Origin: Dyella silvae
Lineage (GTDB): Bacteria; Pseudomonadota; Gammaproteobacteria; Xanthomonadales; Rhodanobacteraceae
Assembly (NCBI RefSeq): GCF_026421305.1
Contig: NZ_JAPJBQ010000013.1
Span: 1 to 58,956, forward strand
Length of the DNA: 58,956 bases
Direction of reading: 5' to 3'
Every line of letters begins with the position of its first letter. Positions within the stretch are counted from its first letter, which is position 1. Made by a program: the position numbers and the translations under genes. Below, one piece after another: positions 2,536 to 6,660 of this stretch. A model generated the notes under the pieces. That model did no database searches, had not been told where the DNA came from, and saw nothing but the letters and a program-made list of their open reading frames with translations.

Positions 2536-3042
2536 TTAGCGGCTGAACACGTTAGTTTCCTGTTTCATGGCCTCTCGCAAGCTCGGCATGTCCGGCGACA
2601 AAACATCATCGATTCGCCACCCGCTCTTAGTTTTTACGAGCTTCAGGCGTAAGGTGCGCCTTGATCCAAGATTTATGAATGAAACCGTTGCTAACGCATT
2701 CTTCTGATCTTGCATTGATATGTGGATGTTCTCGAGCGAAAGATCGAAGTCTTGGCATTCGCACAAAGGGTCCGCATCCAAAACACCGGCTTCGCCGTGC
2801 ATCGCTTCCGCATCACGCTTAATGGCTTCCAGCAGGTTGGTCGTCGCTACCTTGCCGGCATCTGGACTTATCAAGGAAATCGGTGTGCCCCCGGCCTTGT
2901 AGTGTGCATAAACGCCTCTCACGAAAGCTTCGGGAGAGGAAGTCTGAGCTGAAGCCGACCGACCGATGATTATCACGGCAAGCAGCATTGCAACGACAAG
3001 AAAGGCCTTGAGCGGATGACTCTTGGTATGCCGTATTTTCAT
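2536..3042 (-). CDS. Exported DUF3828-like protein, candidate immunity protein
   Basis: The 168-residue product begins with a signal peptide (residues 1 to about 32, ending SASA before QTSSPEAF). The mature part matches the DUF3828 pattern: SPEAFVRGVYAHY at the N-terminus, a central helix with the acidic patch DADPLCECQDFDL, and strands ending TKSGWRIDDV. Proteins of this type are periplasmic and some are immunity proteins to peptidoglycan-degrading effectors. It is the last gene in the leftward series after the VirB6-lysozyme fusion and two other exported proteins, but a repeat (3131-3236) separates it from them. Function as an immunity protein is inferred from context only. Confidence 0.6.
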   Translation of the reverse strand: MKIRHTKSHPLKAFLVVAMLLAVIIIGRSASAQTSSPEAFVRGVYAHYKAGGTPISLISPDAGKVATTNLLEAIKRDAEAMHGEAGVLDADPLCECQDFDLSLENIHISMQDQKNALATVSFINLGSRRTLRLKLVKTKSGWRIDDVLSPDMPSLREAMKQETNVFSR

Positions 3043-3336: not shown

Positions 3337-3852
3337 CTACGGTCCGCCTGCATAGCCGGGAAAGACCGTCGTTGCGCCGCGAAAGCGAGCGATCCAAGGA
3401 GCCAGGGCCGGGTGCACGACCGTTCCGAATGCCACATCATTGGAGTAGTAGCGGATGGTCCCATCGGCTCCGCCACTTTTGTCTGCTACGTCCGCGCGTG
3501 CCGCATAAATTCGTCCATCAGGGTATATGGCAAAGACGGATGCCTCATAGAGGTAAAGGTCGCGCAACCACCCCTCGACAAGCAGGCCTCCACCAAGGAG
3601 CCTTCTTGGTTCTCCCCAGACGTCAAAGTTACTCACGAAGGGCTGATAGTCGGCACCAAGCAACAGCTGGAGTTTGTGCTGAATATCTTTGTCGTCATCA
3701 ATGCGCGCCACAGTTTGGAGCGTTGCGTACGATGGCAACGACGTGACCGTTTGTGCGTGGCATGATGAAATACATAAAGGCGCAACCAGAGCCAACACCA
3801 CCAGAAGCCCATAGAGGTTGCGTAGCAAATGGTTAATTCTGAGGGTTGTCAT
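3337..3852 (-). CDS. Exported protein of unknown family, candidate immunity protein
   Basis: The 171-residue product starts with a hydrophobic export signal (about residues 8-32) ending CISSC-HAQ, which could be a lipobox (Cys as lipidated residue) or a cleavage site before QTVTS. The mature part is a mixed alpha/beta domain with many aromatic residues (LYLYEASVFAIYPDGRIYAA). I do not recognise the family. The ATG at 3852 is preferred; a TTG at 3867 in frame is possible. It lies about 100 bases downstream of the small exported protein coupled to the VirB6-lysozyme fusion and runs in the same direction, so it may be a second immunity protein. Its base composition is lower in GC than that of the metabolic genes to the right. 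Confidence 0.55.
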   Translation of the reverse strand: MTTLRINHLLRNLYGLLVVLALVAPLCISSCHAQTVTSLPSYATLQTVARIDDDKDIQHKLQLLLGADYQPFVSNFDVWGEPRRLLGGGLLVEGWLRDLYLYEASVFAIYPDGRIYAARADVADKSGGADGTIRYYSNDVAFGTVVHPALAPWIARFRGATTVFPGYAGGP

Positions 3853-3970
3853 GCGATAAATCTTCAAATGCCCTGGCCTCTCAAGCGTGGCGACTATTGA
3901 GGTAGGTCATGGGTACTGGGGTTACCCAGGTGCCGTCTCACGTGGCCTTGTTGAACCACCCAATAAAACA

Positions 3971-4351
3971 CTAGATATCAACCCATTTCCCGTGCTCGCT
4001 CGCCAGTTGCTCACCACGGGTTGACTGAATAGTGAGCGTTCCGTTGTCGGTAATGTAGTAGTCGCTACTTTTTGAAGAGAATTTGAATCCGATATGCTGA
4101 CACGGCTCATTCTGGCGCGGGCAGCGGCGAACCCAGTCGGCGCCCTTTAGCTGAGTAACCTCCCCCGACGCTCTATCCACACCGACATAGAGCACATCCG
4201 GGCAATCAATCTCGCCTTCATCGCACAAGACCAGAACAATTACGATGCGCGCCGGGGTAGAGAGTAACCTCTGGTACCTCGCGAACGCCGGAGTTGAAAC
4301 AAGCGCGGCAAGGCAGAGTACTAGCCATAGTGAAAGCGACTTCATACTCAT
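3971..4351 (-). CDS. Small exported protein, putative immunity to the lysozyme fusion
   Basis: The 126-residue product has a clear signal peptide (residues 1-24, ending TPAFA). The mature domain of about 100 residues contains four cysteines (C in VLVLC, IDCP, RRCP and EPCQ) that could form disulfides in the periplasm. I do not recognise the family. The ATG overlaps the stop codon of the upstream VirB6-lysozyme gene (ATGA), so the two are translationally coupled. A periplasmic protein coupled to a muramidase is the arrangement expected for an immunity protein that protects the producer. This role is inferred from position, export signal and overlap; no sequence match to known lysozyme inhibitors (MliC, PliI) is apparent. 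Confidence 0.65.
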   Translation of the reverse strand: MSMKSLSLWLVLCLAALVSTPAFARYQRLLSTPARIVIVLVLCDEGEIDCPDVLYVGVDRASGEVTQLKGADWVRRCPRQNEPCQHIGFKFSSKSSDYYITDNGTLTIQSTRGEQLASEHGKWVDI

Positions 4352-6096
4352 TCTCCGTAGTTTCCGTTGTTGAATAGGTCAAGCTCAGCGTTTCGCCTGT
4401 TTTCAAGGCCGCGATTGACGCGGCCTTGAGATCTATTCCAGGCACGCCACGCCTCATCTACAGATGTGTAAGGTGTGCTCGCTTGCGGATCATTGATCAT
4501 CTGCAATGCAGATGACTGCCGAAATGCTCCCGGCCCGATATTGAAGCAAAGTATCACTAGGGCATCGAACTGACTTTGACTTGCTCCTCGAGTCAAGCTC
4601 GCGTTCACGGTATCTATGAATGGCTGTAAATCGGATACGAAGAGCGCATTCCCCTGATCCTCGGTAATTCCCGATGAAAATTGGGGCCACTGATCCTGAG
4701 TGATTAGATGGCCATAACCTATGGTGGCGCCTGGCACCCAATGGTCAATATTCAACCCCGTTTGATCGTCATAAGGAGCTAAGTGCATCGAACCCTCCGC
4801 TCGCTTTAGCATACCGATGCCTTGCTCGCTGAACTGCAATGGCGACGTAGAGCCATCAGTGTTGATGGCTGCAGCGGTACCCAGTGCGGGTGGCCCCACC
4901 TGGGCTGTCCAAAACCTCGGATCGCCATAAGCCGCTCGCGCCATGGCGATGTCATCCAGTGACGCGAAGTTACGGGAGGGGTCGACGGGCTTGATCACAT
5001 CCGCCTGAGCGGACGATGCCATGCCGGTGAGTCGATGAGGAAAGAGTGGCGCTGTCGTAGTCTGCGATGGTGCGGCGGACGGTTGATAGTGAGGCGCGGG
5101 TGTTTCGCCGCCACCCGGCGCACGACGCGAGCGGCCACTGCCCGCACTACCGAACCCAGGAAATGGGTTGAAGTTACCCATTACACCACCAAAGAGCATC
5201 GCGGCCATGGGCGGGGTGGAGATGATCAGCACGGTCATCAGCAAGCCCACGCCACCTTGCTGAAAGGCCATGGTGCTGAAGCCTTGGGCATCCAAGCCCG
5301 TCATGCGGCTGAGCGCGTCGGTGGTCCATAGCGCCGCTGCCACCCGTGTGGTCAGGTCTAACGCGATGGAGCTGACCCAGTTCAAGGTGGCCATGGAGAA
5401 CACCGTGCCGATGGCGTACATCAGCCATCGTCGGAACAAGTCTTTGGTGCGATCAAACGCCAGACACAGGAGGAACAGCGGCGCGAGCCCCACGATCAGG
5501 GCGATGGCCAGTTGGTAGAGCAGCAGCATGGCGCCGGCGGCCATGGCGGGGGCGCCAATACCAAAGGTGGCCATCATGGTGGTGTGTGCCTTTGCGTCGG
5601 CCAGCGCGATATCACCGCTGGGCACTTGCACCATGTCGATAGCGCTGGTGGCGACGGAGATCAGCAGCAGGTTCTTGTCGATCTGTTGGACGGGTGAGGC
5701 GTCCGACCCGGCCATGATCTGGTTGACCTCGCGCGGCAGTTGTTTGTACAGCACGTTGTACAGATCGACGCCGCCGAACGACATGGCTTTGGCGGCGGTG
5801 ACGATCAGGGCGATTTTGATCAGGCGCGTGACTGTGTCCATCATCGGCGCACGCAATTGGCCGGTGACCATGGCGTAGCCGCGAATGAACACCCACAGCG
5901 TGACGAGGATGAAGGCAACGCTGGTCACCCCATCGATGGCTCGGCCCATCGTGTCGATGGCGAAGCGCTCGATCTTGTGGGTAAGGAAGTTGAAGATGAG
6001 GGCGTAGTAGGCCGAGTCCATACCGAGGTCGCTTATGCCCGCCACCGCTGTCAATAGACGCGGAATGGGGAGGGCTACGTGAGTTCGACCTGACAA
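4348..6096 (-). CDS. VirB6-like protein fused to GH24 lysozyme domain
   Basis: The N-terminal half (about residues 25-310) resembles VirB6/TrbL of type IV secretion systems: DSAYYALIFNFLTHKIERFA, then membrane helices near 56-76, 86-105, 176-215 (probably two), 225-247 and 283-308. A Gly/Ser/Pro-rich linker (310-420) follows. The C-terminal domain (about 424-580) is a GH24 (T4-lysozyme-type) muramidase: E434, D443/D444 and T458 in ATIGYGH, then FNIGPGAF (518-525) and GLENRRNAELDLF (563-575). No other T4SS gene lies in the window and there is no XVIPCD-like tail, so this is an orphan, toxin-like VirB6 fusion. The start is uncertain: TTG at 6096 gives 582 residues, ATG at 6021 would give 557. 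The next gene overlaps the stop by ATGA and is exported, suggesting an immunity partner. Confidence 0.8.
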   Translation of the reverse strand: MSGRTHVALPIPRLLTAVAGISDLGMDSAYYALIFNFLTHKIERFAIDTMGRAIDGVTSVAFILVTLWVFIRGYAMVTGQLRAPMMDTVTRLIKIALIVTAAKAMSFGGVDLYNVLYKQLPREVNQIMAGSDASPVQQIDKNLLLISVATSAIDMVQVPSGDIALADAKAHTTMMATFGIGAPAMAAGAMLLLYQLAIALIVGLAPLFLLCLAFDRTKDLFRRWLMYAIGTVFSMATLNWVSSIALDLTTRVAAALWTTDALSRMTGLDAQGFSTMAFQQGGVGLLMTVLIISTPPMAAMLFGGVMGNFNPFPGFGSAGSGRSRRAPGGGETPAPHYQPSAAPSQTTTAPLFPHRLTGMASSAQADVIKPVDPSRNFASLDDIAMARAAYGDPRFWTAQVGPPALGTAAAINTDGSTSPLQFSEQGIGMLKRAEGSMHLAPYDDQTGLNIDHWVPGATIGYGHLITQDQWPQFSSGITEDQGNALFVSDLQPFIDTVNASLTRGASQSQFDALVILCFNIGPGAFRQSSALQMINDPQASTPYTSVDEAWRAWNRSQGRVNRGLENRRNAELDLFNNGNYGE

Positions 6097-6290
6097 GGTT
6101 AGGCACGGCTCGCCTTTTCGGTAGCGTCATTGACCGACATCGCCTGTCAGTTAAGGCGACTTCAATGGCAGGGGATAGCGCCACGGGTCAGTTGGGGTGT
6201 GAAGTCCGGCTGGCGCACAACGTTGGTGGAAGTGGCGGAAGCCAACCCGCACGTGCACGGCTGACCTGTATATCCAACGATTGAAACGAA

Positions 6291-6321
6291 AAAAACGCGT
6301 GGTGATGAGCCGGGCGTTTTT
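6291..6321. terminator. Probable bidirectional terminator
   Basis: AAAAACGC pairs with GCGTTTTT across a 15-base loop, and both strands run into a T-rich tail. It lies in the 331-base gap upstream of the VirB6-lysozyme gene, which otherwise shows only the hairpin at 6343-6412 and no clear promoter. Confidence 0.55.
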
Positions 6322-6342
6322 CTTTGGACGATTCGATGAGCT

Positions 6343-6412
6343 GAGTCGCACACAGGGCGCGCTCCCACAGAGTGGGTCGATCCCTTGTGGGAACGCGCTC
6401 TGTGCGCGACTC
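6343..6412. repeat. Long hairpin repeat (GTGGGAGCGCG/CTCTGTGCGCGAC class)
   Basis: Arms of about 27 bases: GAGTCGCACACAGGGCGCGC plus TCCCACA against TGTGGGAACGCGCTC plus TGTGCGCGACTC, with a 16-base loop. This REP-like class is common between genes in pseudomonads and xanthomonads. It sits between the island and the homoserine dehydrogenase relic. Confidence 0.6.
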
Positions 6413-6427
6413 GAGAAACCTCAGGCG

Positions 6428-6660
6428 TCACGCCAGCGCCAGCACATCCCCCAACATCGCCTGCGCCGTCACCTCAGGCCCCGCACCCAGCCCCTGAATC
6501 ACCAGTGGTTCGTGTTGTAACGCTTGGCGCTGAGCACTAGCTGGTTGTCGGTGCCATACAGGCGCGTGGCCGGATGACTGGCAGGTACCTCGACCAGCCC
6601 CACGCGTCCACGGGCCACGCTGATTGAGGTGTGCTAGGAAGCGCAACGCGCGGCCTTGTT
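6428..6660 (-). pseudogene. Relic of homoserine dehydrogenase C-terminus (thrA/metL type)
   Basis: Three pieces of a homoserine dehydrogenase C-terminus can be read on the minus strand, in two frames: PEQGRALRFLAHL, then VGLVEVPASHPATRLYGTDN with LVLSAKRY, then HEPLVIQGLGAGPEVTAQAM with LGDVLALA before the TGA at 6428. The order and spacing match the end of bifunctional aspartokinase/homoserine dehydrogenase. The middle piece is out of frame with the other two, so at least two frameshifts have occurred, and only about 75 of roughly 830 residues remain. It is not functional. A duplicated thrA end left by a recombination or insertion event at the island border is one explanation. Confidence 0.75.

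Follow-up and report, generated by a model that had tools for sequence, protein, structure and literature searches.

A VirB6-like protein joined to a GH24 lysozyme in Dyella silvae, a probable polymorphic toxin/immunity locus with a type IV secretion subunit as carrier

We describe a locus of Dyella silvae in which a VirB6-like protein is fused to a GH24 lysozyme and followed by a small candidate immunity gene, P0002. It lies on a contig of 58,956 bases, analyzed over its whole length (the window), of a 4.45-Mb draft genome of 22 contigs. Among the closest described systems, the effector/immunity pairs (X-Tfe/X-Tfi, e.g., XAC2609/XAC2610) of the Xanthomonadales bacteria-killing type IV secretion system (X-T4SS) likewise consist of a peptidoglycan hydrolase and an immunity protein, and the host family has X-T4SS loci with the same kind of VirB6. 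The fusion differs from them in that it lacks the XVIPCD, joins the toxin to a part of the machine rather than to a signal recruited by VirD4, and does not lie at a T4SS locus. Evolved effectors of the type VI secretion system (T6SS), i.e., VgrG, PAAR, or Hcp proteins with toxin tails, also bear the toxin on a machine part with the immunity gene next to it, and a similar GH24/immunity pair occurs in T6SS settings, whereas their carriers are spike or tube proteins that leave the cell and the carrier here is a T4SS inner-membrane channel subunit. CdiA-CT/CdiI and the classical polymorphic toxins are known for a constant carrier, a conserved joint, a variable C terminus, and an overlapping immunity gene, and loci of the contact-dependent inhibition (CDI) type show, after cassette exchange, a displaced toxin end and immunity gene behind the active pair. 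The present locus resembles them in each of these features, including the displaced remnant, but the fusion holds no Pfam domain of another carrier. Rickettsiales VirB6 proteins carry long C-terminal parts and, by this general description, resemble the fusion in having an added C-terminal region.

Here and below, articles are cited from excerpts of their text. A broad survey of polymorphic toxins saw the T4SS unused as a carrier route; its table has a T4SS beside one toxin domain, Ntox21, and neither VirB6 nor TrbL occurs in the excerpted text (Zhang et al. 2012, PMC3482391). Toxin domains are already known to have been exchanged between effectors of the X-T4SS and VgrG proteins (PMC6536674, PMC6759196). 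Judged by titles and the opening lines of abstracts in the open-access literature, we did not find a description of a VirB6- or TrbL-borne toxin; VirB6 as the carrier is what this search did not turn up.

Altogether, the locus is probably a polymorphic antibacterial toxin/immunity locus with a VirB6 carrier, killing and delivery being predicted. It looks like a member of a small, rare, and little-described family of VirB6-borne exchangeable toxins, caught in the window after a cassette swap. What we observed is the fusion, a joint common to proteins with differing C termini, homology of the partner gene to a T6SS-linked partner, the remnant of another toxin, and a break in composition. The fusion and its partner are laid out as follows.

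4348 to 6021, minus strand: VirB6-GH24 fusion, 557 aa, stop codon at 4348-4350; delimited by Pfam, homologue starts, and Protein Data Bank (PDB) relatives.
5176 to 6021, minus strand: VirB6/TrbL core, residues 1-282; PF04610, TrwI/VirB6 by Foldseek, GC content at third codon positions (GC3) 0.84.
4948 to 5175, minus strand: Gly/Ser/Pro-rich linker, residues 283-358; 27-34% identical to four distant members of the set described below and 93% to the relative P0004.
4873 to 4947, minus strand: conserved junction (pre-toxin) motif, residues 359-383; from a six-member alignment, its DNA pattern occurring in 2 of 398 genomes including the window's own.
4351 to 4836, minus strand: GH24 lysozyme domain, residues 396-557; PF00959 at 85.7 bits, catalytic residues, GC3 0.525.
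3971 to 4351, minus strand: candidate immunity protein P0002, 126 aa, putatively exported, four Cys; ATGA overlap with the fusion, homology to GH24 partners on T6SS-linked plasmids.

The open frame at 4348-6096 (minus strand) holds a single intact open reading frame (ORF) of 557 codons from 6021. A preliminary description of this DNA had begun the protein at the TTG at 6096, giving 582 aa; because homologues begin at MDSAYY, the ATG at 6021 and a protein of 557 aa are most likely. Both domains assigned in that description were borne out. A Pfam scan up to an E value of 1 found TrbL/VirB6 (PF04610, 82.9 bits for a cut-off of 25.9) and Phage_lysozyme (PF00959, 85.7 bits for a cut-off of 22.3) with no third family, and no VgrG, PAAR, Hcp, or Rhs carrier domain. 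The N-terminal part resembles R388 TrwI/VirB6 both in sequence (7o3v_F, E 4e-9, PDB search) and in fold (8rt9_F, E 1.3e-6, TM-score on the target 0.69, Foldseek), and profile, PDB match, and modeled fold all argue that it is a real VirB6. The C-terminal part appears to be a real GH24 lysozyme with predicted muramidase activity: E434, D443, D444, and T458 (in the earlier 582-aa numbering) and the GLENRRNAELDLF motif are all present. The fusion model had block means of the predicted local distance difference test (pLDDT) of 59-85 over residues 1-280, below 50 over most of the linker, and mixed in the GH24 part, and a fold search with it gave no lysozyme among the best 50 matches listed. Hence, the GH24 assignment rests on sequence. 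The domain is 48.8% identical to a Klebsiella phage lysozyme. Searched with the fusion, viral contigs gave two weak matches to the GH24 part alone, and no plasmid record covering 80% of it stood among the 30 listed of 129 matches.

The central finding is that the fusion belongs to a polymorphic set. Six VirB6-like proteins, the window's included, align up to a near-invariant joint and then run into dissimilar C termini, so that the search for VirB6 proteins with variable ends proposed in the preliminary description was fruitful. The conserved part closes in all six with MAxAAxGDPx[FY]WTAQVGP[PA]A[PL]GT. Joint residues 360-382 are 78-91% identical to those of the window, while the preceding linkers reach 27-34% in the four distant members and the VirB6 cores 48-96%. 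In the closest relative, P0004, identity is 96% over the core (271/282), 93% over the linker, 91% over the joint, and 18% beyond it; judging by this alignment, its C terminus is unrelated to GH24 and represents a swap on the same backbone. The C terminus of P0005 is a Peptidase_M15_4 (30.1 bits for a Pfam cut-off of 25), those of P0012 and P0123 are of one common type (51% identical), and the fusion of Dyella sp. OK004 (L017:7694-9436) ends in yet another type. Weak matches connect the L017 C terminus with P0005 (E 0.026), P0012 (E ~0.15), and P0123 (E ~0.6), and the remaining pairs other than P0012/P0123 gave none up to E 1. In scans of P0012, its C terminus had no Pfam or PDB match. M15-like ends had been considered for P0012, P0123, and L017 on account of HxxGxAxD-like and terminal His motifs and were set aside as unsupported by Pfam and PDB. 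One carrier with unrelated C termini and a conserved joint ahead of the variable part is the pattern by which polymorphic toxins are recognized. The following gene is readable in two of the six (the window and L017), and the expectation that a different exported gene follows each member holds in both: the L017 gene overlaps its fusion by 14 nt, is unrelated to P0002, and is putatively exported.

Joint-bearing proteins are few. In the protein search, ordinary VirB6 proteins were ~360 aa long; 6 of the 120 listed (of 201 matches) exceeded 450 aa, the window's included, and the other 114 are too short for a lysozyme-type domain. Of 126 protein records compared, 6 contain the string WTAQVG, and two of the 6 are the window's own protein. 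A DNA pattern for WTAQVGPP, searched in 398 genomes of the order, was found in two, the genome of the window and that of the L017 fusion, and its reversed control had none among the matches listed. With the P0012 joint region as the query, the protein database returned P0012, P0123, P0005, and P0004 only, in a search that missed the window's own protein and is thus not exhaustive. Two long VirB6 proteins, P0013 (718 aa) and P0021 (675 aa, Variovorax), whose C termini are unassigned, are devoid of the joint motif and were for this reason left out of the six. A quick tree of 129 VirB6 rows placed joint-bearing proteins at five places beside joint-less VirB6, which suggests that joint and toxin may have moved between VirB6 lineages; in this tree L017 sits on a long branch, the P0123 sequence is truncated, support is only 82-86 at several forks, and the label-clustering test was uninformative.

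The second line of evidence is the partner gene. As first described, the stop of the fusion overlaps the start of a small four-Cys protein (ATGA) whose signal peptide is putative. A second in-frame ATG 6 nt inside P0002 has a better-spaced GGAG, and the real length may be 124 aa. Two of the Cys, C41 and C48 (124-aa numbering), are kept in 6/6 aligned sequences, and the close relatives P0125 and P0126 are 63% and 61% identical. P0002 reached the cut-off of no Pfam family, matched nothing in the PDB under E 0.48, and had no counterpart in NCBIfam or PHROGs up to E 0.1; its AlphaFold2 model from three sequences had a pLDDT of 54.5. A diverged DUF4189, a family often encoded next to ordinary VirB6, was tried as its identity and rejected (hhalign probability 3.3%). 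GH24 domains of this type occur on 14 Campylobacter plasmid records (45-48% identical) and on two Pantoea piersonii records listed (41.7%), with six further Pantoea records matched. In all 14 and in both listed Pantoea records, a small partner gene follows the GH24 match within ~10 bases or overlaps it. In one Campylobacter and one Pantoea record read whole, it overlaps the lysozyme gene and has a signal-peptide-like start, and the Pantoea pair adjoins tssH and tssG. A profile of P0002 and its two relatives scored the Campylobacter partner (119 aa) at 26.0 bits, the best of 10,000 shuffles reaching 11.7, and with the Campylobacter protein included it scored the Pantoea partner (128 aa) at 24.9 bits (best shuffle, 12.8). 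Run up to E 1 on 3,109 ORFs of the loci examined, the five-member profile matched the family and one Gloeothece protein alone. Next to the Klebsiella phage lysozyme lies a PhoH-like gene and no P0002-like neighbour, and the GH24 match on a Burkholderia plasmid has no P0002-like partner.

Because P0002 is homologous to the partner gene behind this GH24 domain in T6SS settings, its predicted role as the immunity protein of GH24 is supported. The Campylobacter plasmid genes have the lengths (119, 1310, and 422 aa) of CJ488_0963-0965 of the C. jejuni 488 T6SS island CJPI-1, which there follow the lysozyme CJ488_0962, and a T6SS is present in 91/96 genomes carrying that lysozyme (PMC8285248). The plasmid pair, which belongs to the P0002 family, would thus be the counterpart of CJ488_0962/CJ488_0963, likewise a GH24 followed by a 119-aa gene. 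This likening goes by gene lengths and not by sequence, and it differs from our locus in its T6SS setting and from the plasmid in that CJ488_0962 has 195 aa and the plasmid lysozyme 644 aa. T6SS-encoding plasmids are described in Campylobacter sp. CFSAN093246, which is represented among the 14 records; in another species, a lysozyme other than this one has a neighbour annotated as lysozyme immunity (PMC9676060).

Directly behind P0002, on the same strand, lie the traces of another cassette.

3836 to 3901, minus strand: what is left of the 3' end of a displaced toxin, namely, the 22 final codons of a P0004-type C terminus with one internal stop.
3337 to 3852, minus strand: second ORF, 171 aa, putatively exported; its start overlaps the remnant and its stop by 20 nt, and it is a candidate immunity gene by position only.

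The last 22 residues of P0004 match 3836-3901 at 18/22 positions (tblastn, 38.9 bits, E 2e-6; best of 500 shuffles, 32.7 bits), and the terminal stop falls at the same place as in P0004. The locus therefore reads VirB6, joint, GH24, P0002, broken end of an older toxin, and exported 171-aa ORF. Since a P0004-type end with the same stop and an overlapping exported ORF stand behind P0002, it looks as though the GH24/P0002 cassette displaced an older toxin/immunity pair, and the 171-aa ORF, by its position, would be the immunity gene of the displaced toxin. Its homologues are part of a longer ORF in three of the four loci read. Together with the homology of P0002, this remnant lends support to the toxin/immunity pair that the preliminary description had proposed.

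The composition of the locus is broken and its surroundings bear marks of insertion. GC3 is 0.84 in the VirB6 core and 0.85 in the flanking reductase gene, against 0.525 in GH24 and 0.61 in P0002. None of the four genus genomes read at the conserved flank (from ~6664 on) has the toxin locus beside it. To the left of the locus lies a repeat and to its right a duplicated gene end; a further gene lies between the repeat and the second ORF.

6193 to 6655, unstranded: duplicated 3' end of a putative homoserine dehydrogenase gene, 86% and 84% identical to G000:C15 of the same genome.
1117 to 2274, unstranded: ~1.15-kb repeat to the left of the locus, with at least 10 further copies, some partial, at 91-94% in its own genome.
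2536 to 3042, minus strand: DUF3828 (YbjP/YqhG-like) protein, PF12883 at 36 bits (cut-off 26); its tie to the toxin locus is doubtful.

We read the duplicated gene end at 6193-6655 as the scar left where the insertion ends on the right. The 1117-2274 repeat contains an ORF with an XRE-type helix-turn-helix, has many copies of ~65-70% in the genus, and had no Rfam match.

What machine the carrier could serve was sought in the host and its family. The window's VirB6 is the sole PF04610 match in the host genome and, with VirB1-VirB11 of Dyella L052 and sister loci plus VirD4 as queries, the sole T4SS gene matched in the window; hence, the fusion is not encoded within a T4SS operon. The earlier statement that no other T4SS genes are present thus stands for the window and fails for the genome, since another contig has an intact VirD4-like ORF (match C18:71788-73176), beside it a VirB7-like gene and a VirB4 match covering residues 13-120 only. 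The VirB10 and VirB4 families had no match in the host genome, with positive controls; VirB8 and XVIPCD had none either, the control being likewise silent in each search. A look for a VirB system elsewhere in the genome, suggested earlier, thus turned up these pieces and no complete T4SS, and by gene content the host T4SS is decayed. The stretch C18:71491-75679 (L034/L035) is a decayed X-T4SS remnant around VirD4, where a 513-aa ORF with a peptidoglycan-binding domain adjoins VirD4 as a possible former effector.

This kind of VirB6 occurs in 71 of 233 family genomes, mostly in open frames of 354-426 aa, and, where its setting was read, usually after virB4 and virB5 and often before a DUF4189-like gene. 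All VirB6 frames above 430 aa were inspected, and long C termini were found in the window's genome and in G125 (Dyella sp. OK004) only; in a sample of the class, this kind of VirB6 was present in 2/369 genomes, the window's included. G125 has a virB1-virB11 locus elsewhere in its genome, in which virD4 was not located, and no other protein of that locus matches around its fusion. A T4SS locus (L020 5750-10231) carries tandem extra VirB6 3' parts, two followed by a putative DUF4189-like gene and the third by another ORF, and partial VirB6 copies lie near full ones in G152, G141, G139, and G110. Such tandem and partial copies suggest that recombination at the virB6 end is frequent. They were also considered as orphan toxin cassettes, a reading dropped since those read proved to be 3' parts of VirB6 next to DUF4189-like genes, and no toxin was recognized in them. 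In Dyella subtropica (L002 7152-11641), virB5-like, virB6, and DUF4189 genes are followed by putative lipoprotein-like and lipase-like ORFs, with no virB4 seen adjacent.

The VirB6 C terminus is cytosolic in Agrobacterium and Brucella (PMC6536674), and the charge pattern of the fusion agrees. This speaks against the proposal in the preliminary description of VirB6 as a vehicle for the enzyme into the periplasm of the producer: the toxin tail would instead be synthesized on the cytosolic side and do no harm before it crosses the inner membrane. We propose a model in which VirB6, an inner-membrane channel subunit of the X-T4SS, serves as a carrier behind whose linker and joint toxin cassettes would be swapped together with an overlapping exported immunity gene. 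In the window, GH24 and the inhibitor-like P0002 would have displaced an older toxin, leaving its last 22 codons and presumed immunity gene. In a cell with a T4SS, the VirB6 protein with its C-terminal toxin (VirB6-CT) would assemble at the channel base and the tail be passed on, perhaps after a cut at the joint, which may be a cutting or gripping site; the joined domain would then kill neighbours after leaving via the X-T4SS. P0002 would bind GH24 in the periplasm and protect against leaked or incoming toxin. A lysozyme effector of X. citri damages the cell that makes it even if the X-T4SS is not functional, and the immunity protein protects (PMC10933484); such self-harm is why an exported immunity protein fits leakage as well as incoming toxin. 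As the host T4SS is decayed, the pair may now act only as an immunity or addiction-like remnant. That VirB6-CT proteins are loaded T4SS subunits, the counterpart of toxin-tailed VgrG or PAAR, whose tail is passed to a neighbour and whose universal joint allows cassettes to be exchanged, between T4SS and T6SS carriers as well, is a tentative extension that we hold as possible though somewhat less probable than its opposite.

Several observations weigh against a VirB6-borne antibacterial toxin. On the side of delivery, the C terminus is predicted to be cytosolic, the Pfam scan up to E 1 found no XVIPCD export signal (PF20410) in the fusion, and the host, in its draft of 22 contigs, has no complete T4SS. 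Fusions are rare (2/233 family genomes), and the next gene is known for just two of the six members. As for the pair, GH24 is as near to the phage lysozyme (48.8%) as to the T6SS-linked ones (45-48%), the Pantoea partner scored 10.4 bits with the P0002 profile alone, below the shuffle at 11.7, and the Gloeothece relative is not adjacent to a lysozyme. The displaced cassette, finally, is a single case of just 22 codons, and the 171-aa ORF has homologues in four other genomes of 230 searched, none beside a P0004-type toxin.

As one rival explanation, the pair may be stranded after decay of the X-T4SS, persisting by chance or because loss of immunity would be harmful and having no present offensive role. 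The host does keep an intact VirD4-like ORF, a VirB7-like gene, and a piece of VirB4 with no VirB10 or VirB4 family match, and the X. citri case tells that toxins of such kind can harm their own producer; but both the fusion and P0002 are intact ORFs, the cassette looks exchanged, and the genome of the OK004 fusion has a virB1-virB11 locus, and we regard this explanation as unlikely, although it deserves to be kept in mind. A phage-type lysis unit, with VirB6 as a holin-like pore and GH24 as the endolysin, would account for the identity to the Klebsiella phage lysozyme; the phage copy is without a P0002-like neighbour, however, other members carry peptidase or unassigned domains, and the VirB6 fold is TrwI-like, which leaves it the least credible of the explanations weighed here. 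VirB1 is a peptidoglycan hydrolase of the T4SS and VirB6 a part of the same machine, and GH24 could in principle open peptidoglycan in a VirB1-like way for T4SS assembly, the small exported gene being a regulator. With the fusion outside any T4SS operon, 114/120 listed VirB6 relatives too short for such a domain, C termini that are swapped, and a partner common to T6SS-linked lysozymes, such a building role is very improbable. Hardly more should be expected of a poisoned subunit, i.e., a fusion that becomes part of the conjugation or killing apparatus brought in by an incoming element and so ruins the apparatus or the cell: a cell without a complete T4SS and an insertion missing from the four genus genomes read at the flank would suit it, yet there is no evidence of pairing with foreign systems, and exported partners and a displaced toxin fit antagonism better.

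Our analysis confirms the observation of the preliminary description and partly supports its interpretation. If the reading as a polymorphic toxin/immunity locus is true, it would add a T4SS channel subunit to the carriers of polymorphic toxins and open to test whether T4SS subunits are sent into a neighbour or the tail is released through the channel. Moreover, it would tie T4SS and T6SS carriers together through a GH24/immunity pair and put a name to a candidate immunity family for lysozyme effectors, which comprises P0002 and the Campylobacter 119-aa and Pantoea 128-aa proteins.

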